38,963 nucleotides of DNA from Deltaproteobacteria bacterium (lineage in GTDB: Bacteria > Desulfobacterota > Desulfarculia > Adiutricales > Adiutricaceae). The translations under genes were made by a program, and so were the position numbers. Of this stretch, positions 2,476 to 30,095 are shown in pieces. Location: positions 1 through 38,963 of the forward strand of contig JAISEQ010000020.1 in assembly GCA_031264045.1 (NCBI GenBank). The letters are read 5' to 3'. Every line of letters begins with the position of its first letter. Position 1 is the stretch's first letter. The notes under the pieces are model-generated. The model saw nothing but the letters and a program-made list of their open reading frames with translations, was not told the origin of the DNA and made no database searches.

Positions 2476-3552
2476 ATGACCTACGCCGGCCCTACGGGGG
2501 TAGTCTGGAACCGCCTGGTCGACTGGGTCAAAAAAGGCGAGATGCCGTACGATTTCCCGGGCTGGGACATGGCCGGCCACGACGGCATGACGCTCGCCCA
2601 CATAGCGGCGGAAGCCGGAATGTACCCCGAGGGCTTCGACATGTGGGAGATGAGGGGGCGCCGGGGTGTGAGCGTGGCCCACGTGGCCGCGAGAAACGGC
2701 CACCTCCCGGAGGGGCTGGAGCTCTGGGATCTCGCGGACGACTCCGGCAAGACGGTCGCCCACGAGGCCGCCGGCCACGGTCCCCTCCCCCCGGATTTCG
2801 ACCGCTGGGATCTCGCCGACGGATTCGGCAGGACGGTGGCCCACGTGGCGGCCAGACTGGGACACCTTCCCCCTGACTTCGACACCTGGGAGCTCCTCGA
2901 CCGAGAGGGCCGCACGGTCGCCCATGTGGCGGCGATCTTCGGCAGGCTCCCTTCCGGGTTCGACAGGTGGGACATGCAGTCCCGTTCCGGCAGGACCGTG
3001 GCCCTCCAGGCATCCAAGCACGGGCACCTTCCGGACGGCATCGGGGACTGGCGGGACCTTGTGAGCGGAGGCGACTTCGCGCCGCAGATCTTCCAGCCCA
3101 GACAGGTGCTTGACCGCAGGACTGGATGGACAGTATCGCACGAGGCAGCGGCGAACGGGCAGCTCCCCGGAGATTTCAGCATGTGGCACATAGCCGATCT
3201 CAGCGGCACTTCGGTCGCCCACACCCTGGCCGAGCGGGGGCCGCTGCCGAAGGGCTACGACATGTGGGAGCTGGCGGACCTCACCGGCTGGACCGTCGCG
3301 CACGAAGCCGCCCTGAACGGGAACCTGCCCGCCTCCTTCCGCAAGTGGGAGCTCGCCGACAACAAGGGCACCACAGTCGCTCACGTCGCGGTCGAGCGCG
3401 GGCCGCTGCCGGCAAATTTCAGCAGGTGGGGCCTCGCGGACAAGTCAGGCAAGACCGTTGCCGAGACCGCATCGGCCTACAGGCACCTGCCGAAGGGCAC
3501 GGGGAGCTGGCGGGCGCTCGTACCCGACGCGCCGCCGCGCAGGAGGCGCTGA
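2476..3552 (+). CDS. Ankyrin-like repeat protein with 27-aa repeats (G-x-T-V-A-H-x-A-A-x-x-G-x-L-P-x-x-F-x-x-W-x-L-A-D)
   Basis: 358-aa ORF with SD-like GGAGGG upstream of the ATG. Eleven units are visible, e.g. SGKTVAHEAAGHGPLPPDFDRWDLADG, FGRTVAHVAARLGHLPPDFDTWELLDR, TGWTVAHEAALNGNLPASFRKWELADN. Confidence 0.9.
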   Translation: MTYAGPTGVVWNRLVDWVKKGEMPYDFPGWDMAGHDGMTLAHIAAEAGMYPEGFDMWEMRGRRGVSVAHVAARNGHLPEGLELWDLADDSGKTVAHEAAGHGPLPPDFDRWDLADGFGRTVAHVAARLGHLPPDFDTWELLDREGRTVAHVAAIFGRLPSGFDRWDMQSRSGRTVALQASKHGHLPDGIGDWRDLVSGGDFAPQIFQPRQVLDRRTGWTVSHEAAANGQLPGDFSMWHIADLSGTSVAHTLAERGPLPKGYDMWELADLTGWTVAHEAALNGNLPASFRKWELADNKGTTVAHVAVERGPLPANFSRWGLADKSGKTVAETASAYRHLPKGTGSWRALVPDAPPRRRR

Positions 3553-8817: not shown

Positions 8818-9688
8818 CTGAACCTGCGATGACAGTTAATCTTTTCGGTCAGGAATTTCAGACGCGCGGTTTTGACGGACAGGCGCGGCGCGCGGAGGAC
8901 GAAACGGTATTCGCCTTCAATCATACCACTTACGTCCGGAAGAGGCGGTACAGCGGGTATAATGCGGTGTCTAGAATGACTGCGGACTCCTGCGGCATGG
9001 AAGCTCCTGGCCGGCTTTGCCTAACGATCCATCCGGGACCTGTCGGACGGAGGTCCGGTTCCTGCCGCAGGCCGCCAAAACCGCCTGCCGCCTAAACAAT
9101 CGGGCCGACTGGTCGATTTTCATCTCTTCTCCAAAAATTCCTCAACCGCTGGAAACTGGAAAACCGCAACTGTTCAGGCCCTGTCTCTGACGGACGGCAG
9201 ACATGTCCATCATATGGCGGTACAGGCGCCCTGACGGGTCTCCAGCACCGCGTCATGTCCCCGCATACCCGGATATTCCCCCCTGCCCAGTTGCGGAAGC
9301 TCCTCCCCTTCCCGCCGTTTTATAATTTTCCGCTTTTCACATTGCCCCGGCAAAACGCCTTCGAAGGTTCCCGTCATTTCCAGGACAAATCAATCCGACG
9401 GCAACCCGAAAATTTCACGGACGAGCGCCGGAAAAAGTGCGGCTTGAGTTTGAACAGCCTGCAAAATCCTCAAATCCCATGCCTTTCGGAGATGGGGACT
9501 CATGTCCGGGCGCCCCCCGGCGGAACGCGGGACCGGCGATCGCGTTTCCGCGCGGAGCCGATTTCCCCGGCATCCCCCAATCCGTACGGTCCTGCGGCTC
9601 CCGGGCAACGCAGGCGCCCGTGCGGCGAAGCGGGGCCCGAGAGCCCTTACGCGCGCCGCGCCCCGGACGGGAGACGGCGCCTCCGCCG

Positions 9689-12600
9689 TCACCTCCAGTC
9701 CCCCGTCACGACGAAGGGAGCCCAGTAGTACGGGTGCGAGCGGCCGCCGCCTTCCCAGCGCGGAGCCTCCGGAGCGGCCGCACTCCCCCCGCCCGGTTCC
9801 GCCCCGCCATGCGGCCGGGCGGGTGACGCGGCGCGCGCACCGCCGGGACCGCCGTCCGCTCCGCGCATGAGCTTCAGCTGCGCCGCGCGGAGCGCCTCGG
9901 CCTTGTCCAGGCCCTGCACGTAGCGCAGGCGGTACATCTCCTTCATGAGTTCGGCCCTGGAGAGATCCTCCACCGGCCAGAGGGATGCCAGAACGGCCGA
10001 GGCACCGGCCCTCTGGAGCGCCTCCCCCAGGCTCTCGACCTCGGCGCCGGTCCCGCCGCGCGAGGCCGACGGGGCTTCGCAGCCCGAAAACGTCAGCAGA
10101 TCGATGCCACCGAAGTCCATGTCCCCCCCGGTCTCCATGGCCCTGAGGCTTATCGCGGTCCCGTCCCCGAGGAGAAGCTCCGAGGCCCCGTGGGATTGGG
10201 GGTCCAGCCTGAAGCGGCTGGCCACATGCACGGCCCGCGCTCCGGAAGCGAGGCCCGCCGCGAGCGACGCGCGCGTGAAGTCCGAGTCCAGCATGCCCTT
10301 CCCCTCCATGATTCCCCCGTCGGGCCCGATGGCCGTCCCGTCAGCCCGGGGCTGCCGGGGCTCCCGCGCCCCGCCTCCGCCGGTGCCAACTGCCGCGCCG
10401 CCCGCCAGGGCGCCAGCGGCCCCCGCCTGTCCGGCTCCGCCCACCACCGCGGCTATCTCCTCCGCCACGCCCGGCAGCGCCGGGTAGCCCGGCCAGTCGC
10501 GGGTGGCCCCCATGGCCCTCGCCGTGGCCTTCCCGTCCGGCGCGGGTTTCCTGAGCCCGGAGGCGGTGGACCCGGTGTAGACGGCGGTTGGGTGCCTTTC
10601 CGCGAGATACCGCTCCCCGTCCCAGAAGGCCCCGAAGGGCACGTAGCGGAGCGCCCCGTCCAGGGACAGCATGACGGTCCTCGCGCCCGCCCCCGCCAGA
10701 TCGTCCTCCAGGGGACGGATCACCGCGTCGAAGAGCCTCCTTCCGGCGGCCCTGGGGTCCCTGGAAGGATCGCCCAGGAGCTCCCGGAACTCCGCCGCCA
10801 TGGCACCGAGCTCCTCGCCCGTCGCGGCGGACTCCCTGACCGCCGCCGCCCGCGGCGTGACCAGGACGAGATGGAGGGTCCCGCCGGCCATCACGGCGTG
10901 GAGCAGGACCGAGCCCGGGCCCGCCGCCTCCAGCGCCTCCCGGCGGGCGCGCAGGCCTTCCGAAGCCCCCCCGGACGGCGCGTCCCCGGCGCCTCTTCCC
11001 GGAAGCCCGGGGAGACCCGCGCAGAACGCCTTGAAGACTTCCCGCGCCTCTCCCGCCCTGGCGTCCAGATCCGCCAGGCGGGCGAAGTCGGAGGCGCCGA
11101 GGGTTCCGTCCCCCTCCAGCCTGGCCCTCAGCTCATTCTGCCCGGATCCGATGGCCGTGCCGATCTCCGCCAGGCGGAAATATTCGCGAGCGGCCTCCTC
11201 CTCGGGGGCGCCGGCGAAAAGGCCTGTCCCCGCCGCCCGGTTTCCCGGGGCCTCCCGGCGTCCAGGGGCCGCAGTGAGGCCCGTTCCTGAAGTCGCCGCC
11301 CCGCCGGAACCGCCCTCCCCGGCCGGCTCCGCCCGTCCCGGATCGAGCGCCTCGAGCTCGTAGCCCTTTATGAAGTCCAGGACGTCCAGGGCCTCCGCGA
11401 CCCGGCCCGCCCCGGCCAGCTCCCCGAAGAGAAGGCGGCAGACGCTCTCCGCCGCCGCGGGGCTTGCCCGGCAGCAGTCCCCGTCGCCCGCGGGGTTCTC
11501 CCGGACGGCCTCCCGGTAGGCTTCCGCGGCGAGCTTCAGGAAGAAGATCGCCCGGGCCCCTTCCCCCAGCCCGGAACTCGCCCTGCCGATCCCGGCGGCG
11601 GCCCTGGCGGCGTCGGGGTGGAAGGGTCCCTTGAGCCTGGTCAGGATCTCAAGGACGGGGAGGAGCGCGTCCCCCGCGCCCCGGAGGTCGCCCGCCGCCA
11701 AGTGGCTCTCGGCCAGCCTGAAGCCGAACTCGAGCGTGAGCGGGCTTTCCGGCCCCAGGGTTCCTTCCGCCTCGCGGAGCACGAGCCCGTTCATCGCCCG
11801 CGCCTCGGAGAGCTCACCCTGCGAGGCCATGATGCCCGCCAGGGCGCTCCTGTCCCCGAGCGTCAGCGGATGCCCGGCCCCGAGGGCCCTTTCCCTGGAG
11901 GCCAGCGCCCGCTCCATCATGGCGCGGGCGTCGCCGAACTCCCCTGTCCGCTCCAGGATCGAGGCGAGCTTCTCCCGCGTCCCGGTGGCATCGGGGCCGT
12001 CCTCCCCGAACGCGGCGGTTTCGGCCTGGAGGACCAGACGGAGGGTGTCCCTCGCCAGTTCCGGCTCCCCCAGGCTCACGAGAACCGCCGCCAGGCGGCT
12101 TCTGGCGTCCAGGCCCTCGGGGCCGTCCTCCAGACGGGCCCCGGCCAGAGCGTCGATGGCCTCCTCGAGCGCGGCCCTGGCCTCGGCGTGCCGGCCCCTC
12201 GCGTCCAGGGCGTCCGCGAGAATTACCCTGGCGCCGGGCGCGTCGGGCGCGGGCGCCAGGAGCGCTTCGGCCTCGCCGTATCTTCCCATGCGCACGAGCA
12301 CGGAGGCGAGGTCCTCGCGGGCGAGCCGGGTGTCAGGATGCCCCGCGCCGAGGGTCCCCTCCCGCGCTTCCAGGACACCGGCCAGCTCCGAGCGGGCCCC
12401 CTCGCGCAGGCCCAGGGCGTCGAGCCCGCGGGCGAGGCCTCTTCTCGCGGAAAGCGCGTCGGGGTCGCCCCCGCCCCTCGCGCGGGCCAGAGTTTCCGCG
12501 GCGGCCCTGTAGAGGGCCAGTGATGCGCGGTGGTCCCCCAGGCGCTGCAGCGTGCCCGCCAGGGCCGCCCCCGCCAGGACCGCCTCCGGATCGTCCCGGC

Positions 12601-14062
12601 CCCGCGTCCGGAGGAGGGATTCCATGACCCGTTCCCTCTCGGCCCTCGCCGAGACGTAATCCCCGCTCGCCTCGAAGGATCTGGCGAGGCTGTTCCGGAC
12701 CGCGAGGGCGTCCCGGCTGTCGGCCCCGAGGATCCTTTCGCGGGACTCCAGAAGCCCCGCCCACGCCGCGCGCGCGGCGGCATGGTCGCCCAGGGCCTCG
12801 TGCGCGGCCGCGAGGTTCCCGCGGACAGCCATCGTGAAGGGATGATCGGCCCCGTCAGTCCTCTCCCTGGCGGCGAGGAGCCTTTTCAGAAGTTCCCTCG
12901 CCCCCTCGCCGTCGCCCGAGTTCGCCAGATCGGACGCCAGGTTCTCCAGGGTGCCCAGGGTGCGGGGGTCGTCCGCCCCGAACCTGGCGGTCTGGGACTC
13001 CAGAAGCCGGGAGTCCAGTTCCCGCGCCGCGGCATGGTTTCCCAGCGACGCCTCGACCCCGGCCAGGCTCCGGAGCGCCGCGAGTGTGTCCGTGTGCCCG
13101 GCCCCGCGGACATGCTCCAGGGACTCCAGCGCCAGCGCGTACAGATCGCGCGCCGACCTGCGGTCGCCCGCCGCGGCCAGGGCGGAGGCCAGCGACATCG
13201 TGGACGCCACCGACTCCGGGTGCCAGGAGCCGAGAGTGCCGGAGTGCGTCCCGGAGATCCGGCGCATTTCCGAAACCGCCGCCTCGGGATCGCCCGACGC
13301 CGCTGCCGCCATGGAGCGGGAGCGCCCGGCCGAGAGCGTCTGCGGATGGCCGGGCCCCAGGGCGGAAAGGGAGATCCGGACAAGATCCTGAAGCGCCTCG
13401 CCGGCCCCCGCCACGTCCCCGGAAAGGAGCAGGCACAGCGCGGCCGTCTCGGAGGCGTAAAGCGCCTCCGGAGAATCCTGCCCGAGGGTCGCGGCGAGCC
13501 AGCTGGCGGCCCTGTCCGCCGCCTCCCGGCTCGCCTGCCACGACGCCGAGAATTCCATGAGCGATCTGGCATGGAAGCTCAGCGCCTGAAGCGCCCTGGG
13601 GTCGTCCGGGCCGTACTCCGACTCGGCGGCCGCCGCTATCCTGCCCCAGATCTCCGCGGAGGCCTCGTGGTCGGCGGAATCCAGAAGCTCTTCGGCGGAG
13701 AGGCGGAGCTGCTCGAGCTCCGGGCCCATCGGGGCGTAGTTCCAGGCGGGGCGGTAGCGGGAAGGGCTGCGGGGGCCCCCAGGCGCAGGCCCGGCCCCCG
13801 GCTCGGACGCCGGGCCAGGGGAGCCGCCGGCGGCCCGGACGCCCGGCTCCGCCGCAGCTGGCGGCGGGCCCGGCCGGGGGTCGGCAACGGCCGAAGGGGA
13901 CGGAGACGGGGATGCGGAAGAGGAAGGCGGGGATGACGCGGAAGGCTCCGCCGCCTCCCGTGCCTGGAGGGTGAGGGAGGCGGCGGGGAGGACCAGCAGG
14001 GCCAGCGCCGGGGCGGCCAGGAGGGCGCGGAGCGCGGGAGGGTGTGCTGTCGGGGCTTTCAT
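9689..14062 (-). CDS. Exported TPR (kinesin-light-chain-like repeats) protein with C-terminal CHAT domain; predicted catalytic His replaced by Arg
   Basis: Start chosen at MKAPTAHPPALRALLAAPALALLVLPAASLTLQA (signal peptide), preceded by AGGAGG. Many ~42-aa TPR units with LGxxHPxTL motifs. CHAT C-terminus ARAVHVASRFRLDP...LLLGDG...DLLTFSGCEAPSA...VESLGEALQRAGASAVLASLWPVED...HPYYWAPFVVTGDWR. Confidence 0.92.
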   Translation of the reverse strand: MKAPTAHPPALRALLAAPALALLVLPAASLTLQAREAAEPSASSPPSSSASPSPSPSAVADPRPGPPPAAAEPGVRAAGGSPGPASEPGAGPAPGGPRSPSRYRPAWNYAPMGPELEQLRLSAEELLDSADHEASAEIWGRIAAAAESEYGPDDPRALQALSFHARSLMEFSASWQASREAADRAASWLAATLGQDSPEALYASETAALCLLLSGDVAGAGEALQDLVRISLSALGPGHPQTLSAGRSRSMAAAASGDPEAAVSEMRRISGTHSGTLGSWHPESVASTMSLASALAAAGDRRSARDLYALALESLEHVRGAGHTDTLAALRSLAGVEASLGNHAAARELDSRLLESQTARFGADDPRTLGTLENLASDLANSGDGEGARELLKRLLAARERTDGADHPFTMAVRGNLAAAHEALGDHAAARAAWAGLLESRERILGADSRDALAVRNSLARSFEASGDYVSARAERERVMESLLRTRGRDDPEAVLAGAALAGTLQRLGDHRASLALYRAAAETLARARGGGDPDALSARRGLARGLDALGLREGARSELAGVLEAREGTLGAGHPDTRLAREDLASVLVRMGRYGEAEALLAPAPDAPGARVILADALDARGRHAEARAALEEAIDALAGARLEDGPEGLDARSRLAAVLVSLGEPELARDTLRLVLQAETAAFGEDGPDATGTREKLASILERTGEFGDARAMMERALASRERALGAGHPLTLGDRSALAGIMASQGELSEARAMNGLVLREAEGTLGPESPLTLEFGFRLAESHLAAGDLRGAGDALLPVLEILTRLKGPFHPDAARAAAGIGRASSGLGEGARAIFFLKLAAEAYREAVRENPAGDGDCCRASPAAAESVCRLLFGELAGAGRVAEALDVLDFIKGYELEALDPGRAEPAGEGGSGGAATSGTGLTAAPGRREAPGNRAAGTGLFAGAPEEEAAREYFRLAEIGTAIGSGQNELRARLEGDGTLGASDFARLADLDARAGEAREVFKAFCAGLPGLPGRGAGDAPSGGASEGLRARREALEAAGPGSVLLHAVMAGGTLHLVLVTPRAAAVRESAATGEELGAMAAEFRELLGDPSRDPRAAGRRLFDAVIRPLEDDLAGAGARTVMLSLDGALRYVPFGAFWDGERYLAERHPTAVYTGSTASGLRKPAPDGKATARAMGATRDWPGYPALPGVAEEIAAVVGGAGQAGAAGALAGGAAVGTGGGGAREPRQPRADGTAIGPDGGIMEGKGMLDSDFTRASLAAGLASGARAVHVASRFRLDPQSHGASELLLGDGTAISLRAMETGGDMDFGGIDLLTFSGCEAPSASRGGTGAEVESLGEALQRAGASAVLASLWPVEDLSRAELMKEMYRLRYVQGLDKAEALRAAQLKLMRGADGGPGGARAASPARPHGGAEPGGGSAAAPEAPRWEGGGRSHPYYWAPFVVTGDWR

Positions 14063-14302
14063 GGTGCGTCCTCCTGCGCCGCGTCCCCCCGGAACGTCCG
14101 GGGGGGCCACGAGGCGGCAAAGGCTTCGGGCACGGTTCCTGCGGACCGGCCGGTCATCCCGAAGCCGGATCCGGGGAGCTCTGGGCCCGGACGCCGGAAA
14201 TGGGCCGGCCGGCGGTTTTACCCGGGCCCACGCGGCGGGATCCGGCCGCGACGGCGGGGAGGGAGGCGGGACGGGAAGCCGGGGGAACGGCCGAAAGGCT
14301 TT

Positions 14303-17300
14303 TCACCGCCAGTTTCCCATGAGCACGAAAGGCGCCCAGTAGTAGGGATGCGACGTCCCCTTCCCGTCCCAGCCCGGCGTACCGGGGAGGGGGTTCCCGA
14401 CGGAGGCCTCCCCGTGCAGGGAAGGCACCTTGCCGCGCGCCGCGCCGGCGTCCGGCCCCCCGCCGCGCATCATCTTCAGCTGCGCCCCGCGCAGGGCCTC
14501 GGCCTTGGAGGCTCCCCCGGAATAGCGCAGGCGGTAGAATTCCCGCATGAGATCCGGGACGGAGCGGTCGGCCACCGGCATCACGGCCGCGAGTACCGCC
14601 GACGCCCCGGCCCTCTGGACGACCTCGCCCAGGCTCTCCACGTCCCTGCCGTCCCCTCGCCCGGCTCCGGACGCCGTGTCGCAGGCGGAAAGGGTGAGGA
14701 GATCGAGGCCGCGGAAGTCCAGGCCCCGCCCGGAACGTATCTCGCCGAGGCTCAGGGTCCCCCCGTCGCCGAGCAGGAGGGCCGAATTCTCCAGGCTCCG
14801 CGGATCCAGCCTGAAGTGGCTCGCGACATGCACGACCGGCGCTCCGGACGAGAGCCCCTCCGCAAGGGAGGCGCGGGTGAAGTCCCCGTCCGTCACCGAG
14901 GTGCCCCGGAGCGCCCCGCCGGGCGTCCCGGACGTCCTCACCACCGCAGCGAGCTCCCCCGCGACGCCGGGAAGGGCCGGGAAGCCTGGCCAGGCCCGCG
15001 TGACGCCCATGGCGCTCACCGTGGCCTCCCCCTCGAACGGCGGGTCCCCCATTCTCAGCGCCGTGGCCTCGGTGAAGAGGGAGACCGGGTACCTCTCGAC
15101 GAGCCAGCCCTCCCCGTCCCACAGTGCCGCCACGGGGGCGTAGCGGAGCTCCTGGTCCAGCGACAGCATGACGGTCGAGGCGCCCGCCGATTCCAGATCG
15201 CCATCCACTGGGCCTAACAGGGCATCGTAGAGCCGTCCCGCCTCGGCCCGGGGATCCGCAGTCCGATCGGCCACGGCCCGCCGGAATTCCCGGGCCAGAA
15301 CCGCAATCTCCCCGTGCCCCGTCCCCGACGACCTCGCCGTGACCGAGTCCGGCGCGACCAGCACCAGGAACAGCCCGTCGTCCGCGGACACGGCATTCAG
15401 CAGGACCGTCCCCCGTCCCAGGGAGCCCAGCGCCGCCTGGCGCTCGGCCAGCCTCTCCGCGGCCCAGGACGGCCGGGATAGCCCTTCCCCGACGCCGGGG
15501 ACAGCCAGGAGCTCCGGGATCCTGCCCAGAAGCCCGACGAGCCCGGCTTCCTCGGCCGAAATCAGCCCGGGGAGCTCCGAGAGCCGCCTCCCGGCATCCT
15601 CCCGAAGCCCTCCCGCCGTACGGGCGGCTTCGAGGCCGGCGCGTTCCCGCTCGAGCGCGGCGGAATGCCCGGCCGCCGAACTGAAGGCCTGCCAGGCCTC
15701 CCCGTCGCGGGTGCCCCCGAAGAGATCGGGAGCCGCGCCGAATCCGGAAGCGGCCGGGGGATCGCCCCCCGCACCCGCCGCGGCCCGTCCGGGAGAACCC
15801 CCCGCCGCACCGGGAGCCCGCGCCGCCGCGGGAACCGCCTCCGTCCTGGCCTTCGGCTCCTCCGCGCCCCAGGACGCCCTGTCGAGCCCGAAGCGCTCCT
15901 CCTCCTTCAGGAGCCCCAGCACGGCAAGGGCCTCCGCGTTCCTGCCCTCCCGGACAAGGTGGCCGAAGAGCCTGCGATAGCTGCCGGCCACCGTGGACAG
16001 GTAGCCTCGCCTCGTGTCGCGGTCCATGGACCCCAGCGTGGCCCTCTCCTTTTGGGCGGAGTCCACGGCAACCTTCAGGAAGAAGACGGCAGCGGCCCGG
16101 TCCCCGGACGCCGCCCATGCCTCCCCCATGAAGGCCGCCGACCTGGACGCCAGGGGATGGGAGGGACCGAGGCGCACGGCCGCGGTCGCCAGGGCCGCCG
16201 CGCCGACGGCGCGGGCGGCCGGGGCGTCCCCCAGCCTCAGCCGCGAGGCGGCGAGGACCAGGGCCGACTCGACGATGTCGGGATGTCCGGCGTCCAGGAC
16301 CGCCATCCGGGCGTCCAGAACTTCCCGGAAAAGCTCGGCGGCGGCCTCCGGCTCCCCGAGGTTCTCCAGCGCGGCGGCCGTGTTGGCCTTGATGGCGAGG
16401 ACCGACGGATGGCGAGGGCCCAGACGCGCCTCAGCTTCCGCCAGCGCGCGGCTCGTGAGGTCGTACGCGCCGCGGGCGTCCCCCAGCCGGTGCATGGAGG
16501 CCGCGAGGCTGGCCAGCGACTCGAGCGTCTGCGGGTGGTCCGGCCCGAGCGCCCCCGCCCTGGCCTCGGCCACGCGGCGGAACGCGGGCATGGCGGCGGC
16601 GTAGTCCCCGAGTTCGTAGAGCGTCCAGGCAAGGTTGTTCGCGGCCGACAGGGACACGGGATGCTCCGGGCCCAGGGAGGATTCCAGGGCGTGGAGCGCG
16701 CGCTCGTTAAGTTCCCGCGCCGCGGCCAGCTCGCCCAGCTCCGCCATGGCCAGCGCCAGGTTGGCCCTGACGGCTTCGGTGTCGGGGTCCCCTGGACCCT
16801 GGGCGGCCTCCCTGGCGGCGAGCGTCCTCTCAAGAAGCGCCCTCGCCCCGTTCAGGTTCCCGAGGTCGTAGAGCACGGACGCCAGGTGGCCGGCGCGGAC
16901 GAGGGTGCCGGGACTGTCGGCGCCGAGCGTCCGGACGCTCGCGTCGAGGCAGGCGGCCAGCATGTCCCGCGCGGCCGCGAGCCCGCCCCGGGCCCGGAGG
17001 GCCGCCGCGAGGTTGTTGGCCGCCGCGAGGGCTCCGGGGCCTTCGGGGCCCTCCTCGCGGATCCTCGTCTCCAGGATGCGCCTCCAGAGCGTCTCCGCCT
17101 CCTCGAGCTCCCCCAGTTCCAGCATGTCCAGCCCTAGCTCGTGCATGGCGCTTCCGGCAAGCCGGTCGCCTGCCCCGAGGGCGGCCTCCGCCGCCGCAAG
17201 GGTCCCGGACATGTGCTCCCTGGCCTCCCTGAGCCGCCCCGAGAGCCGAAGCTCGCGACCCAGCGACACCGCCAGGAACAGCCCGGTCCGGTGTCCGGGC

Positions 17301-18349
17301 CCGAGCCCGCCGTCCGCGATCCCGAGCGCCGCCGCGAGCAGATCGGCCGCGGGGCAGTGGTCCCCGCGGGCGGCCATGGCCTCGGCCAGCAGGTTCATGG
17401 TCTCCAGGCTCTCCCGGCAGCCGGGCCCGAAACTCGACACGCATGCCCCGGCCGCCGGCGACAGGGCCGACGAAGCCTCGCCGAGAGCTCCCCCCGCCAT
17501 AAGGGCCGAGGCGAGCGCGCGCCTGACGGACAGCGTCTGGGGGTGGCCGGGGCCCAGCGCCGCCTCGGCCCTGGCGGCGAGTCCCGCGAGCTCGACCGCC
17601 GATCCGGCGGGGTCTGTCCCCGCCCGGAGCGAGTGCGCGGTCTCCTCGAGCATGTAGGGCTCGGGGGATCCCGGACCAAGGGCCCCGGCCATGATCCGGG
17701 CGGCGGACAGAAGAGGCCCCGAGGCCTCGGCCCCCGAGGAGCCTGCAAGCGCCGACTCCCGCATCATCCTGCCCGCCGCCGCGAGCGGCCTGGGATCGCC
17801 CTCCCCGTAGGCCTCCTCCGCCCCCGCCGCGAGCTCCCTCCAGGCCTGGGAGGCTTCGGCGCTCAAGCCCGCCCCGGAAAGTCTCTCGGCGCCGGCCCGC
17901 AGCTCCTCCAGAGATTCCCCCATCGGGCCGAAGGGCCAGGCGGGGAACCAGAGCCCGACGTCCCCGGCCCGGTCCGCCCGATCTGCCGGGGCCGCCTCCC
18001 GTACGTCCGGGCCGTCGGCGCGTCCGGAAACGGAAAGGGCCAGGAAGAAGGCGAGGGACAGCGCCAGCCCGCAGAGGGCGCAAACGGCGATTCGGACGGT
18101 CCGCCCGGAGCCCGGACGCCGGGGAGAGACGCTCCGGAGGAGCGGGCCGACCGGGCCCGTGCCGAGCGGAACTCCGTTCCGGAGCGGGTCGGTCGAGCCC
18201 GGGCGGGTGTGGGCGGAGAACTGGCGCGGGGGAGCCGAACCCGGGCGGCGGTGAGCGGGGAACGGGGGAACCGAGCGTGGGCGCAGGTCGGGGATCAGGG
18301 CCGCGAGCGATAGGTCGGGGCGGATGCGGCCAGGGGTCGAGGCCGTCAT
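14303..18349 (-). CDS. Membrane-anchored or exported TPR protein with C-terminal CHAT domain; predicted intact His/Cys dyad
   Basis: Start chosen at MTASTPGRIRPDLSLAALIPDL (AGGAGG 8 nt upstream). TM/signal segment VRIAVCALCGLALSLAFFLALSVSGRA. TPR repeats, then PVVHVASHFRLDP...LLLGDGGTLSLGEI...DLLTLSACDTASGAG...HPYYWAPFVLMGNWR. Confidence 0.93.
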   Translation of the reverse strand: MTASTPGRIRPDLSLAALIPDLRPRSVPPFPAHRRPGSAPPRQFSAHTRPGSTDPLRNGVPLGTGPVGPLLRSVSPRRPGSGRTVRIAVCALCGLALSLAFFLALSVSGRADGPDVREAAPADRADRAGDVGLWFPAWPFGPMGESLEELRAGAERLSGAGLSAEASQAWRELAAGAEEAYGEGDPRPLAAAGRMMRESALAGSSGAEASGPLLSAARIMAGALGPGSPEPYMLEETAHSLRAGTDPAGSAVELAGLAARAEAALGPGHPQTLSVRRALASALMAGGALGEASSALSPAAGACVSSFGPGCRESLETMNLLAEAMAARGDHCPAADLLAAALGIADGGLGPGHRTGLFLAVSLGRELRLSGRLREAREHMSGTLAAAEAALGAGDRLAGSAMHELGLDMLELGELEEAETLWRRILETRIREEGPEGPGALAAANNLAAALRARGGLAAARDMLAACLDASVRTLGADSPGTLVRAGHLASVLYDLGNLNGARALLERTLAAREAAQGPGDPDTEAVRANLALAMAELGELAAARELNERALHALESSLGPEHPVSLSAANNLAWTLYELGDYAAAMPAFRRVAEARAGALGPDHPQTLESLASLAASMHRLGDARGAYDLTSRALAEAEARLGPRHPSVLAIKANTAAALENLGEPEAAAELFREVLDARMAVLDAGHPDIVESALVLAASRLRLGDAPAARAVGAAALATAAVRLGPSHPLASRSAAFMGEAWAASGDRAAAVFFLKVAVDSAQKERATLGSMDRDTRRGYLSTVAGSYRRLFGHLVREGRNAEALAVLGLLKEEERFGLDRASWGAEEPKARTEAVPAAARAPGAAGGSPGRAAAGAGGDPPAASGFGAAPDLFGGTRDGEAWQAFSSAAGHSAALERERAGLEAARTAGGLREDAGRRLSELPGLISAEEAGLVGLLGRIPELLAVPGVGEGLSRPSWAAERLAERQAALGSLGRGTVLLNAVSADDGLFLVLVAPDSVTARSSGTGHGEIAVLAREFRRAVADRTADPRAEAGRLYDALLGPVDGDLESAGASTVMLSLDQELRYAPVAALWDGEGWLVERYPVSLFTEATALRMGDPPFEGEATVSAMGVTRAWPGFPALPGVAGELAAVVRTSGTPGGALRGTSVTDGDFTRASLAEGLSSGAPVVHVASHFRLDPRSLENSALLLGDGGTLSLGEIRSGRGLDFRGLDLLTLSACDTASGAGRGDGRDVESLGEVVQRAGASAVLAAVMPVADRSVPDLMREFYRLRYSGGASKAEALRGAQLKMMRGGGPDAGAARGKVPSLHGEASVGNPLPGTPGWDGKGTSHPYYWAPFVLMGNWR

Positions 18350-19713
18350 GGGGCAGTCCTCCTGCGCCGCATGGCCCGCGGACGGCGGGAAAGGCGATTG
18401 GGGTGATGCCCGGTATTCTACCACACCCGGAGCCGGACAGGCGCGGGCGGTCCGCACCGGTACAGCGCCGTGTACCCGGAGCATTGGAATTTCTCTTGCC
18501 GGCGGAGAACGCGCGGCGGACGGGGCACCGGCGAGGAGCATGTGCCCGTCGGGGCCCCGGCAGGGCGCAACCGCCGGTTCCCGCGACGGCGGACGCGGCA
18601 CGGAAGAACGAGCGCCTGAACCCGCTCCCCTCCAGTCGCGGGGTATCTGAGGAAGCCGGTTCGGAAGCTGTCCCCGGAGAGGCGTCGGCCCTCCCGGCCG
18701 CTGGGGCGCAGACGGAGCCGTGCCCGGGTCCGGGATCTGTGCCGCCGCGAGGTCATGCGCACGCATGAGCCGGTCCCCGCGCGGGGCCCGGGACTTTTCC
18801 CTGCCCTCAAGGGGCGCGGGACGAGGAACTCATCCGCGGGCACGTACCGGGAGATCCGCCGCGGGGCCTGACGTCCGCAGTCGCCGCGGGGACGCGTTGC
18901 CGCCGTTCGGGCACCCCGATGCACCCGCCCGGGCTCCACCTCCGGCCGGCCCCCGAAACCTCGGCGCAAGCCGAAAGGGTCGGGAATCGTCGCCGCTGAA
19001 GTCCGGATCCGGACCTTCGCCCGTCTCGCTCCGGGTCGGCTTCCAGACTTCCAGGGGCGGAGGAGCGTCAGAACGGCCTGACGGATCGACCCGGAAGAGG
19101 CCCCCGGCGCGGACGGCGGGCGGGCCGCAAGAGAGGCTCTCCGGAAAACAGGAGCTCCGGAAGAGAGGCGTCCTGGAAGACGGGCACCCGGATTGAAGTG
19201 CGCACTTGAACCTGGTACTGGAAGAGATTCCCTTTCGAGCGCCGCGGCGGAAGGTTCGCGGTAAGCTTAATCGATGGACAGATTGTTTTCTGATAGGGTT
19301 GGAAATTGCAAATACAGACGAAAATTATAATCATATTTGAAAATTTATGAATCGTAATTTTAAAAAAAAATTGGGGATTTCTGGATTATTTGTATCATAA
19401 GATTAATACAGTGTCGATGATTTAGATCAAGATCATGAACTTAAAATTTTACAGCTCAGTCACCGCACATTCCAATTGATATTACTTAACTTACAACACC
19501 TTCCGACCTTCCGCCGACTCCCAGCATCCTTCAACTGCCTCGCGGCAGTTCGCATTACCCCGTAGAATTCAATATACAGATCTTTGGTCTGGAAGCAATT
19601 TCCCCTGAGTGAAAATATTATTCTTTAAACGTTAGAGGCCCACGAATTTCTTATGGACAGCGATTCTGGAGAGCGGGCAGGACTGAAATGGCGGGAAATC
19701 CCGCGCATTGCCG

Positions 19714-20760
19714 TCAGAAGCGACTACAAAAATTGTCTTGCTTCCGAAGATTAAAGTTTCCCGAACAGTTTCTCTTCCTTGGGTTTATAATAATCCTTTC
19801 GAAAACTACCCGCCAACCTACGGAAAATCCGCAACTGCCCATATAGACGAGTAGCTGTTCTATTCTTTCTTTACGGTGCCGGACAGCCTTGATCGTCAAT
19901 TCTAATTGATAACGGATATCCTTATAGCTCTCGCATATGTCTGCTTTGGTCAGTCCCAGGTCCTACTCCCTCTTAATGAAATCTGCTCAGCAATTAAACA
20001 CACTTTGAAGGAAGGCGAACAGCACAAGATAAGCGTATGCTTTGCTGGAAAAATCTAAAAGTTTATCCTTGAGATCCTCAACAATTTACAGACCGAATTG
20101 ATTTAAATTTGATATTTAATAATTTAGGAAAATTATTTTTACGCTATAACCAACTATGAAGTCCAAATAGTTTGATATAATTTTGATTTTTCTATTGGAT
20201 TTTCACGCCAGTAGACCTGGAAAGCCTTAAGAAGGGCATCCATGTCGACACTGGTTTCATCCATCCACTTGTTGCTGACAAAAATTGCTTGGAATATTTC
20301 TCTGGAATTTCCTGGTAAAAGCCATGACGTTTAACTCTCCATAAATGGGGTTGGAAGGTACTAAGGCATCGGAGCTATCTGGAGAATATCCCAGCAGACC
20401 CACTTCGATGGCATATTCGATATCATCGTCCGAAACTTCTGTGGAGAAGGAATCTGCCCCGATAATCACTGCATCCATTACCCTTCAGACTCTCGGATCC
20501 TGCAGTCGCTCCTTGAGATAGTCGAAATGGATCGGATCGCAAAGAATCAAAGCATGGGCCGCCTGGTCAATGTCGGTTCCCGTGATGGGCTTGGAATTAT
20601 CATTTTAGACTGTGTTTCAACAACGCAATCATCCAGGGCATCGACAAGCCACGGGTGACCACCGATCCTGTACCAGGCCCGTTCAACGGCATCGGGTTCG
20701 AAAATCTGTCCCGTCTCAACGGTGTACGGGAGTAGAGAGATTAAATTTATTCCATGGTGA
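19714..20760 (-). pseudogene. Decayed AAA-like ATP-binding protein with C-terminal PD-(D/E)XK-like region
   Basis: Minus-strand frames give TVETGQIFEPDAVERAWYRIGGHPWLVDALDD, then ITGTDIDQAAHALILCDPIHFDYLKERLQDPRV, MDAVIIGADSFSTEVSDDDIEYAIEVGLLGYSPDSSDALVPSNPIYGEL, FVSNKWMDETSVDMDALLKAFQVYWRENPIEK, KAYAYLVLFAFLQSVFN, ADFIKRE*DLGLTKADIC, and YQLELTIKAVRHRKERIEQLLVYMGSCGFSVGWRVVFER. The order matches known AAA-like/PD-(D/E)XK proteins, but it is split across frames with stops. Confidence 0.75.
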
Positions 20761-21660
20761 AGTTGGTAATAGTCAGTGATTGTTTTATCACGTTGAGAAG
20801 GCTGGCCAGATCAGTTGACTCGGTTTCCGGCCGAACCCTGCTCAGACAGACCCTATCGATTATTCATCGGACTGTGAGACGGATGATCCGCCGCATGTCG
20901 CGTCACATCTAAAAGAGGAGGTCAAAGCTTCCCCAGTCGCTGCCGCAAGCGCGGATTCCAATGAGCACGGGCCGTCCAGAACCGCCTCCGCTACCTCGGA
21001 GAACGTCAGGCAATTCACGCAGAATTCGGTCTGCCGCCTGGACATGTCGGTCTTCTCGATCTCCATGAATAATGGAAGCTCACGGGCTTGCCTTTTCCTC
21101 CATGACCATCAAGACCGCATCTCAGGCTTCCTCAATTTGTCTTTCCGGTTCCTCTTTTTCCGTTTCCATGACCCCCTGGTCCGCCCAGATAAAATCCTCA
21201 TCGAAATCTCTCTCATTTTGCCTTTCAAAGTATATTAAACGGAACAGATCGCATCTGTCCAATAACGCGGTCTCATAAGCAGCGCTCAACGGGGAAGCGG
21301 AACCTGCCGGGGCTGGAAATTTTTTTCAGAGTTACTGCTTTCATGCCATGGGAAAAATTTTGCATCAATCGAAAGAGAACCTGCTATCACCTTATTCTCA
21401 ACCGCCAATAAACACTGCTTTCCCACGCCATCAGCCGTCCTGCGGTCTCGGATGCTCCAGGCACCAGATGGCGCGGACGCCTTCGACTCTCCGGAGGCGG
21501 ACCAGACCGACTCGGCGGGGGAACCCTCCCGCGCGGGCAACGTTCAGAAAAGTTGACCCGGAGCGGCCTGCCGGTCGGGAACAGCCCCCGAAGCAGTCAC
21601 CTGGCGGGAGGGGGGGGGAACGCCTCTCACGACGAGCCCCCGGTCCTGGCAGGCCGGGCA

Positions 21661-22035: not shown

Positions 22036-22911
22036 CTAGTTGGTGTAGAGGGTGTAGTCAACCGTGACTCCTGAGATGTTGCTGACCCGCAGGCTGTAAT
22101 CGGATTCCTCCTCGGGGGTCCAGGAACAGGCGCCCACGGTCTCGAGGCCGTTATCGTAGGCCACGAGATTGTCCTCCATATCGTAGACGAAAAGATCCAC
22201 GTCCTGCCCGGAATTTATGACTATAGTGGCCCTTGCCGTGGCCCCTCCAGGGAACTTCACGACGTAGACGTCCGTGGAGTGCGGCCTTATGCGGTCGCTG
22301 TGGCTCTCGCCTTCGGGTCCGGGGGGCCTGCGGGCGCGGCGGGAGCCCGCCGCCATGGCCTCGATGGTGGCGGCCAGGGCCCCGTCCCCGCGTTCCCTGG
22401 CGAGCGCCGCCGCCTCGCCGAAGAGGGATCCCGAGTCGTAGGCGACCGGGACTGGAGACGGGACTGGAGACGGGACTGGAGACGGGGGGGGAGCGCCTTC
22501 GGGGTTTCCGAATAAGGGACCCCCGCCGGTCAGGGCCCGGGCGATAGAAGCCCGAGAAGGCACTTTGTTCTCTGGCAGGGAACCGTCATCCCGGTCGCTC
22601 ACGGTGGTCTTGTGCCGGGTCACCGCCTTTATCCGCGCGGTGGCCATCAGCTCGGCCGCGGCCGCGAGCGCCGCTGGGGAGCCCATCCTGCGACCCTCCT
22701 CCGCCAGGCGGGAGGCCAGCGTCAGGCGCTCCACGGGGTCGGGGCCGGATACGGCTTCAGGCTTGGGCGGCTCCTGAAGCGCCGTTCGGGGGGCGGCATG
22801 CCTGCCGGCCGCGGAGGCGGTTCCCGAAAGGGGCATGAGCACGAAAAGGGTCGTCCAAAGGACAAGGGCAGTTGCGAAGGGGCGGGGAATACACGATGTT
22901 GCGGCGGCCAA
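22036..22911 (-). CDS. Exported protein with Pro-rich linker and C-terminal PPC-like beta-sandwich domain
   Basis: Probable TTG start at 22911 preceded by AAGGAGG (aaggaggaaagcTTG). Signal peptide region TALVLWTTLFVLMPLSGTASAAG. C-terminus DVYVVKFPGGATARATIVINSGQDVDLFVYDMEDNLVAYDNG...YSLRVSNISGVTVDYTLYTN resembles bacterial pre-peptidase C-terminal domains. The longer ATG start at 23028 lacks an SD. Confidence 0.75.
   Translation of the reverse strand: MAAATSCIPRPFATALVLWTTLFVLMPLSGTASAAGRHAAPRTALQEPPKPEAVSGPDPVERLTLASRLAEEGRRMGSPAALAAAAELMATARIKAVTRHKTTVSDRDDGSLPENKVPSRASIARALTGGGPLFGNPEGAPPPSPVPSPVPSPVPVAYDSGSLFGEAAALARERGDGALAATIEAMAAGSRRARRPPGPEGESHSDRIRPHSTDVYVVKFPGGATARATIVINSGQDVDLFVYDMEDNLVAYDNGLETVGACSWTPEEESDYSLRVSNISGVTVDYTLYTN
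22447..22482. repeat. 12-bp perfect tandem repeat x3 within the PPC-like gene (encodes SPVP)n
   Basis: cgggactggaga repeated three times; protein reads PPPSPVPSPVPSPVPVA. Confidence 0.9.
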
Positions 22912-23241
22912 GCTTTCCTCCTTGGGGCGGGGGGCCCGACTGGCGGGATGCGGGGACAGAATCCCGGGCGGCGCGGGCACGAGTCCGGCATACGAGGCCG
23001 GAAACCGTCGTCCGGCGGTCATGTTCATGTGCGCGGCGGAAGCGGCGAGTCCCGGCGGGGCCAGATCCGGTCACTGCGCATGGGGCTGCCGCCCCCGGAC
23101 GGGATATCACGGGTTGAGCTCAAGCTTCATAAGGCCGCTGCCGGCTGCGGCATGGTCAAAGCCAAAAGCGATTCAAAGGAAACGGCGGGCTCAGGACATC
23201 GTAAAGCTTAAGACAACGGTCGCTTATCTTTACACAAAGGG

Positions 23242-28883: not shown

Positions 28884-30095
28884 ATCCGCGCGGTTTCCCG
28901 GCCGCGCCGCCCGGCCTGCGGCCGGTTCAGCCCATCGGCATCCTGCTCTCACGGAAGCGCTCCCGAACGGTCCCGGTCCCGACGTCCGCGGGGCGGCGGC
29001 ATGCCCTTCATCCCCCGGATGCGCGTCCCTGACGGAACAGAAATTCCGTTTCGCCGAAAAGAGCCCCGCCGTTCCGCGGAATTCTGGATGCGGGAAGAGG
29101 CGGAAAAGACGGAGAAAACAAATCTGCAGACTTCTGAATATTGAAATTCAATTTATTGAAAATCAATTTTCTGACACCCGCTCGCTTCCGATGTCATAAC
29201 ATGTTGCGACAGATCAAGCATCTGTTCACATTGGGGCTTGGGAAAACCGCCTGGAGATCCGAAACTACGGAGCGAGGGAAATCGGCGGGGATTATGAGAC
29301 ATGAGAGACATGATTTGGCACATGGTGTCAGTTATGGAAGGAAGGCCATGTTCGGGTCTGGCTGCATTGAGGGTGAACCGCCAGAGGCAAATCATCCATC
29401 CGCGAACTGATACTTGATAAATTTATTCGCTATAAGCACTAAGCAATATCATAATCATAAATATGTTCTATCTAAAAATATATAAATTTTTTTGGAATAT
29501 CAAAATTTTTACACTCTTTCTTCACTTCTCGTTTTAGTTCACAGTGAGAGTTGGCTGCAAGCAGAGAAATTACATGATGATTTTCACTGGATTGCCCCTC
29601 AGACAGGTTAATGCTGACATGACATACTGAGGCAGTTGTATGTCCCGTGGTTGGAAATAATTATCCGATCGTGCAGATGTCGATGCAAGCGACATGGCCG
29701 ACATGAAATCCCGTGTCAGCAAAGGCAATCCATCGGAAAACCTGGAAACCAGGATGACAGGTACAGAAAAAGCAACACGGGGGAGAGTTGCATGCCGTAA
29801 CTTTTCCTCACGTCGCAGGCGACAGAAGCGGAAAAGGCCGTTCAGAAACGTATCAGGACGGCCAAACGGAATTCTTACAGTATATCGGACACGGGCCTTC
29901 CCCTCTGAGCGGGCTGGCACGGCCCCGAACCTGCTGATGTTCGGAAACGCCGACAAATTGGCTGGCAGCCAGACATCGGCAAAACAGCTTAAAATTCATA
30001 CGGCAAATCGTGGCACATCCAAAGCGAATTGGATTAGCCAATTCAATTATCCAATTACAATCTCTCTTCAACAGGGTAAAATTAGGCTCATAATT

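Follow-up and report, generated by a model that had tools for sequence, protein, structure and literature searches.

Does a bacterial caspase-like protease that probably acts outside the cytoplasm work together with a catalytically dead relative? This question is raised by two adjacent genes on contig JAISEQ010000020.1 of GCA_031264045.1, a fragmented metagenome-assembled genome whose owner is probably a termite-gut bacterium. Here, "the window" refers to the whole stretch of 38,963 nucleotides that was analyzed. A preliminary description of it had proposed that the two genes encode an exported TPR-CHAT pair consisting of one intact protease and one pseudo-protease. What is known of TPR-CHAT proteases comes mostly from systems inside the cell, Craspase among them.

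Results

The presence of two adjacent, same-strand TPR-CHAT genes was confirmed. The upstream gene, P2, occupies 14303..18349 on the minus strand (1348 aa) and starts with the ATG at 18349, the end coordinate given previously; the downstream gene, P1, occupies 9689..14062 on the minus strand (1457 aa) and starts with the ATG at 14062. Direct reading of the minus strand places a Shine-Dalgarno AGGAGG ahead of each start, at 18358..18363 for P2 and at 14070..14075 for P1. Both reading frames are intact, and the 240 bp between them contain no terminator-like site. Pfam identifies numerous TPR_12/TPR_10 units in both proteins together with a CHAT domain (PF12770), located at 14312..15247 (minus strand) in P2 (E = 4e-50, 171 bits) and at 9698..10750 (minus strand) in P1 (E = 1.5e-41, 143 bits), the latter with an extra low-confidence loop. 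Since both proteins far exceed the curated family cut-off of 24 and the catalytic His is otherwise nearly invariant, a chance match is excluded. Pfam gives CHAT instead of Peptidase C14, which was not found in either protein, and reported no anti-sigma domain before the membrane segment at E values up to 0.001. The model for the FxSxx-COOH system TPR protein (NF040586) matched the TPR part only, with 272 and 244 bits, below its cut-off of 300.

The structure check suggested for the CHAT domains, a comparison with Csx29 and separase, was run with AF2 models (pLDDT of 90.6 for P2 and 85.5 for P1) and Foldseek against the PDB. Both domains are predicted to retain the caspase/separase-like fold, and Csx29 is the top match for each (E of 9.8e-13 for P2 and 6e-12 for P1). 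A sequence-only PDB search with E up to 0.01 found nothing, and alignment to the solved TPR-CHATs required a lenient cut-off; in this profile alignment, the dyad columns of P1 and P2 fall on H585 and C627, the proven catalytic residues of a type III-E TPR-CHAT (PMC9729208). In P2, these columns hold His (CAC, 14816..14818, minus strand) and Cys (14681..14683, minus strand), and with this intact dyad P2 is predicted to be an active-type CHAT peptidase. In P1, Arg (CGC, 10214..10216, minus strand) lies on the site of H585, and an HMM alignment to the paralogs likewise places it in the catalytic His column, while the Cys site is occupied by Cys (TGC, 10079..10081, minus strand). P1 is thus predicted to be a pseudo-protease, as had been proposed, and the motifs quoted at the time and the 45-residue spacing from His or Arg to Cys hold in both proteins. 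P1 retains 79 of the 87 positions that are ≥90% conserved in active copies, and its altered positions include the catalytic His and residues adjoining the Cys.

Export of both proteins is likely, as judged by a hydropathy scan. P1 has a hydrophobic signal segment (LLAAPALALLVLPAASL; 13973..14023, minus strand; mean KD 2.21) that is followed by a Pro/Ala/Ser-rich linker. The hydrophobic segment of P2 (IAVCALCGLALSLAFFL; 18041..18091, minus strand; mean KD 2.61) lies about 86 residues from the ATG, and hence it could equally well be an uncleaved anchor or a signal peptide. N-terminal hydrophobic segments are also present in most complete paralogs and, with a strict cut, in 40 of 82 outside relatives. 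Accordingly, the part of the preliminary description that presented export as unusual found no support in that form: TPR-CHATs with export segments occur commonly across several phyla, and their export is by itself neither unusual nor new.

Orthologs of P1 were found in two congeners, G005 and G002 (clade support of 98/94 and 95/85), and their dyads are both broken, but differently. The G005 ortholog (contig C151, 6252-11396) has Arg/Ser, with CGC at the His site as in P1, and the G002 ortholog, whose gene lies partly on contig C589 and partly on contig C721, with 19 bp common to the two contig ends, has His/Ser. The two Ser codons, AGC and TCC, belong to different codon classes, indicating separate Cys-to-Ser events, and among the three orthologs (R/C, R/S, and H/S) no replacement residue is shared. 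The Arg is therefore not private to the window copy, but neither is it the defining lesion of the P1 lineage, because the G002 ortholog keeps the His and has lost the Cys. It also follows that conservation across the orthologs does not extend to the Cys remaining in P1. Conservation of the tandem arrangement is partial. In G005, contig C151 keeps the order active-then-pseudo, with P2 orthologs about 59-60% identical, next to other neighbors and with no TRAP/TAXI genes found; the pair alone is shared, and synteny across the window was rejected. In G002, no active CHAT adjoins the P1 ortholog and a search of this 74%-complete genome gave no clear P2 ortholog, so that adjacency is not obligatory.

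P1 and its orthologs have kept open frames of ~1460-1715 codons despite synonymous distances near 0.7-0.9, and the pN/pS of the CHAT domain in a P1 ortholog pair (dS 0.68) is 0.50, compared with 0.25-0.37 in active pairs and well below 1. Intact frames and purifying selection argue that P1 is a maintained pseudo-protease, and recent decay or sequencing error was rejected on the basis of the orthologs and the substitution ratios. As its relatives are each broken differently, P1 has seemingly been kept for a job other than protein cutting. With a pN/pS of about 0.59, the TPR regions are fast evolving relative to TAXI, the slower divergence control, which was chosen because RecA and RpoB are missing from several of these incomplete genomes; constraint on an interface shared by P1 and P2 is therefore not evident. 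P1 and P2 are 37% identical in the TPR region and 57% identical in CHAT, and they are not mutual nearest paralogs.

Exported TPR-CHATs have expanded in the genus, with 0-36 matches per genome. The dyad is broken in 17 of 68 near-complete genus copies, versus 1 of 88 related sequences elsewhere, and at least 3-5 separate losses are needed to account for this. Across the genus, six pairs of CHAT genes are adjacent on the same strand, and five of them combine an active with a pseudo copy (permutation p=0.035, a value that overstates independence because the six pairs include orthologous ones); counting distinct loci only, three of four are mixed. For most pseudo copies, no active copy was found alongside, many of the contigs being short. 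Other CHAT copies in these genomes do carry genuine frameshifts or are fragmented.

The larger ORFs of the window encode transporters, regulators, and repeats according to a Pfam scan, which revealed no Cas genes of the kind linked to type III-E systems (Cas7-11/Csx30); a type III-E CRISPR link was hence rejected. A known defense system was likewise rejected, as PADLOC returned nothing for the four proteins scanned, and no structured RNA or tRNA was present in the searched sequence. An operon link to the downstream TRAP/TAXI transporter was discarded because the congener TAXI orthologs lie on other contigs, none of them beside the G005 pair. Pieces of an AAA gene flank P1 and P2. Insertion of the pair into this gene was rejected, since the flanking pieces are in the wrong order.

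Discussion

The explanation that we tentatively favor, and that we hold to be somewhat short of an even proposition, is that P1 is an exported non-catalytic TPR-CHAT modulator of the exported protease P2. P2 would be an exported, TPR-regulated caspase-like CHAT protease, and P1 would have lost catalysis while keeping its TPR superhelix and CHAT fold, with selection maintaining a binding role. The short gap without a terminator-like site suggests that both may be translated from a single transcript, and both would act outside the cytoplasm, presumably in the periplasm or at the surface. There, P1 may compete for or present the class of ligand or substrate that P2 recognizes; alternatively, it may dock onto P2 in direct physical contact and tune its activity. 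Regulation of P2 by P1 is plausible, and both what the system senses and what it cuts are putative.

It is also quite possible, if somewhat further short of even, that P1 functions on its own as an exported binding protein (a receptor, adhesin, or decoy) that was recruited from the protease family and is unlinked to P2. In that case, the two genes would be neighbors because of local turnover within a large exported repertoire that evolves fast, a situation comparable to that of the scabies mite's inactivated serine proteases. The repeated dyad losses in the genus, the many pseudo copies not seen beside an active one, the G002 ortholog without P2, and the fast TPR evolution are all consistent with this, and it has been argued that prokaryotic pseudo-orthocaspases work separately from their active relatives (PMC6426788). 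However, two diverged species share the active/pseudo order although the neighboring genes differ, and most adjacent pairs are mixed, which speaks for P1 as a modulator of P2. A decaying gene that awaits removal after loss of function is improbable: the CHAT constraint is relaxed relative to active copies and other copies have truly broken down, but the long frames of three dyad-less orthologs, the substitution ratio, and the conserved positions kept by P1 largely refute decay. Even less credible is residual catalysis via another base or residue, for which one could cite the Cys of the window copy and the His kept next to Ser in G002; no common replacement has arisen, and the Csx29 H615A/C658A double mutant, altered at the corresponding sites, is inactive (PMC10028731). 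That the Arg arose through an error of sequencing, binning, or alignment in a fragmented assembly is hardly credible at all, given that the G005 ortholog has the same codon and that neighboring conserved active-site positions of P1 are changed too.

Among known systems, Csx29 of Craspase, whose dyad columns align exactly, is closest in having a TPR array followed by CHAT. Within Csx29, CHAT1 is a pseudo-caspase half and CHAT2 the active one (PMC10028731); the dyad missing from P1 is that of the active half. P1 and P2 are about twice as long and carry predicted export segments, a feature not described for Csx29 in its cited literature. DdvA (PDB 8rot and 8rw5), a transmembrane anti-sigma factor, offers a membrane-linked CHAT that matches P1 and P2 structurally at 14-19% identity and has the aligned His and Cys; this likeness is one of structure and sequence, and P1 and P2 differ in having no anti-sigma domain detected by Pfam. 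Separase also places helical repeats before a caspase-like fold but is eukaryotic and cleaves cohesin. HetF of cyanobacteria is membrane linked and combines CHAT and TPR domains; its CHAT, however, is N-terminal, and it is a single gene with a role in the divisome and heterocysts (PMC8406250).

The pseudo-orthocaspases (C14 p20) are bacterial caspase folds with a replaced His/Cys dyad and make up 8.6% of bacterial orthocaspases (PMC6426788). They differ from P1 in having p20 and not CHAT, in their usual replacement (Tyr/Ser), and in being concentrated in Alphaproteobacteria and Cyanobacteria, and exported tandem pairs are not described in that study. Work cited there provides models for a partnership of P1 and P2, namely, cFLIP-L/caspase-8 and TbMC4/TbMC3, in which an inactive paralog acts with an active one; these are eukaryotic, and the interaction is proven for them and putative here. 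The same study also cites the inactivated serine protease paralogues of the scabies mite, an expanded protease family with many inactive members, although they belong to an animal parasite and their fold is unrelated to CHAT.

What the pair adds to a known kind of protein is a pseudo-enzyme branch of exported TPR-CHATs. It is conceivable, although we regard it as unlikely, that the genus possesses an extracytoplasmic system for caspase-like recognition, made up of dozens of fast-evolving TPR-CHATs in which repeatedly evolved dead paralogs control or complement the catalytic members, as a bacterial counterpart of caspase-8/cFLIP or of the mite proteases. The genus has dozens of exported TPR-CHATs, and the active site is broken in a quarter of these. 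Since the P1 lineage was inactivated differently in three species while its frame was kept, it provides a natural test of which functions a CHAT fold and a TPR array serve once catalysis is lost, and of whether pseudo-proteases are a means by which bacteria regulate extracytoplasmic caspase-like enzymes.

Results

The minus strand of the window (contig C240 of a metagenome-assembled genome of 4.76 Mb, 83% complete) contains two long open reading frames, both encoding TPR-CHAT proteins according to a domain scan: P2 (14303-18349), with a His/Cys dyad, and P1 (9689-14062), with Arg/Cys. AGGAGG lies upstream of the most likely start of each, ATG 18349 for P2 (1,348 amino acids), which is the end coordinate of the preliminary description, and ATG 14062 for P1 (1,457 amino acids). 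No terminator-like site was found in the 240-bp gap, and the only promoter-like sites in the region, which constitute weak evidence, are at 19.3-19.5 kb, upstream of P2.

Among 75 aligned CHAT domains, the His column (H233 in P2 fragment numbering) is nearly invariant and the Cys column (C278) invariant. When a profile of this alignment was compared with PDB sequences, the two columns coincided with H585 and C627 of TPR-CHAT, described as its catalytic dyad (PMC9729208); a Csx29 double mutant at the equivalent residues is inactive (PMC10028731). P1 has Arg (CGC) in the His column and retains Cys. AF2 models of both fragments were confident (pLDDT of 90.6 for P2 and 85.5 for P1), and structure searches with either ranked Csx29/TPR-CHAT first, followed by DdvA, separase (named with Csx29 in the preliminary description), and others. 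The column match, models, and structural matches together place the Arg at the catalytic His site within a fold predicted to be intact, as had been proposed.

P1 starts with a typical signal-like stretch (MKAPTAHPPALRALLAAPALALLVLPAAS...) followed by a Pro/Ala/Ser-rich linker, and in P2 a strongly hydrophobic stretch lies about 86 residues from the ATG; these calls come from hydropathy rather than SignalP, and hydropathy does not tell a cleaved signal from an anchor. Such segments also occur in most complete paralogs of the genus, and 40 of 82 relatives from other bacteria, some with lipoprotein-like motifs, passed a strict hydropathy cut. Putative export segments, as claimed for both proteins, are thus present, but export appears to be a trait of a wide TPR-CHAT group and no peculiarity of the pair.

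The closest relative of P1 (R/S; 60% over 823 residues; CHAT clade support, 98/94) is at positions 6252-11396 of contig C151 (JAISFP010000360.1) in genome G005, directly downstream of the closest relative of P2 (H/C; 59% over 1,298 residues; support, 100/98). The neighbours of the pair differ between the two genomes, so it is the pair itself that is conserved. A third P1 ortholog, with an H/S CHAT half, is split across G002 contigs C589 (L174) and C721 (L153), one half matching P1 as far as a given point and the other from that point onward. A stretch of 19 bases inside this CHAT gene is identical at the two contig ends, which makes it very probable that the contigs are neighbours. The Ser codon in the Cys column is TCC in G002 and AGC in G005, which makes two separate replacements of Cys probable in this lineage. 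The dyad is broken in all three orthologs, with no common replacement, and the His-to-Arg change is therefore not what defines the lineage. The tandem order recurs in G005 but not in G002, where the ortholog is preceded by a PPC-like exported protein instead of an active CHAT, and where a search for P2 orthologs gave no clear candidate.

Comparing P1 with the G005 ortholog gave a pN/pS of 0.50 in CHAT (dS, 0.68) and 0.59 in the remainder; the ranges were 0.25-0.37 and 0.54-0.60, respectively, for five pairs of active orthologs and a single pair of paralogs. At 87 strongly conserved CHAT positions, these two proteins have 8-9 changes, most active genus copies 0-5, and most other broken copies 16-44. 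These values show constraint on the P1 CHAT domain to be relaxed but real. Judged by a TAXI transporter gene from the same two genomes (86% identity; dN/dS, 0.19), the CHAT genes are fast-evolving.

The six genomes of the genus that were compared (G000-G005) have 15, 9, 36, 13, 0, and 24 CHAT matches, respectively; elsewhere in the family, multiple matches are confined to a single genus (11 and 4), and CHAT is absent from most genomes. Some of the six correspond to public "Deltaproteobacteria bacterium" MAGs, and sample-style names, together with a termite-gut survey reporting Adiutricaceae (PMC9137090), suggest that these may be Adiutricaceae of termite guts. The dyad is absent from 17 of 68 near-complete CHAT domains of the genus but from only 1 of the 88 related domains taken from other bacteria; the Fisher value (2e-6) is to be read loosely, since the outside set was picked by similarity to active P2, which disfavours broken copies. 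The trees require 4-5 changes between intact and broken states, at least 3 of them forced by strongly supported branches, and in several cases the ortholog of a broken copy is broken as well (R/V; A/T and P/T; P/S and P/S). The R/V copies L188:5453-6370 (G000) and L134:3-920 (G005) are 91.5% identical, and their dS of 0.10, far below that of the TAXI control (0.48), suggests recent exchange; both contigs stop at the same residue.

Several gene families recur around CHAT genes. Degraded AAA_35-like pieces flank the pair on the minus strand, an N-terminal one downstream (8820-9020) and a frameshifted C-terminal one upstream (20296-20845); longer members are located near CHAT genes in G002. The ankyrin-like repeat protein at 2476-3549 (plus strand; repeat DGxTVAHxAAxxGxLPxGF) belongs to a family with several copies adjoining CHAT genes (G005:C532, G002:C120, and G001:C159). 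An exported protein at 22039-23028 (minus strand), with a C-terminal beta-rich domain that is PPC-like by eye and without a Pfam match, has relatives adjoining broken CHAT genes on contigs G001:C49, G002:C589, and G003:C1 (JAITRL010000052.1). Contigs G001:C49, G002:C589, and G005:C206 (L196, L174, and L171) share a conserved arrangement in which a broken CHAT gene precedes a gene that, by eye, resembles a DNA methyltransferase. Exported proteins with the N-terminal region of these TPR-CHATs and no CHAT, often in tandem, also recur beside CHAT genes (L134:11795-17732, L129, L149, and L184), at one site just downstream of the G005 pair. Window positions 19000-21300 and 29000-29700 have 46-47% G+C and hardly any open reading frame, versus 75% in the CHAT genes.

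Discussion

Pseudo-enzymes with a caspase fold (PMC6426788) and exported or membrane CHAT proteins (PMC8406250; PDB 8rot) are already known in bacteria. In a literature search covering few subscription papers, no account turned up of a class of broken TPR-CHATs that is maintained and has evolved repeatedly, or of an exported active/broken TPR-CHAT tandem. We slightly and tentatively favour a role for P1 as a partner that would modulate or feed P2, the active protease, because the order is kept in two species and mixed pairs are in excess (5 of 6 adjacent CHAT pairs are active plus broken; P = 0.035, with orthologous pairs counted twice). Nearly as likely, P1 would instead be an independent binding protein using its TPR array alone, in line with the large number of broken copies that stand unpaired and with the G002 ortholog. 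Whether as a partner of P2 or on its own, the data support P1 being a retained, non-catalytic, and probably extracytoplasmic TPR-CHAT protein.
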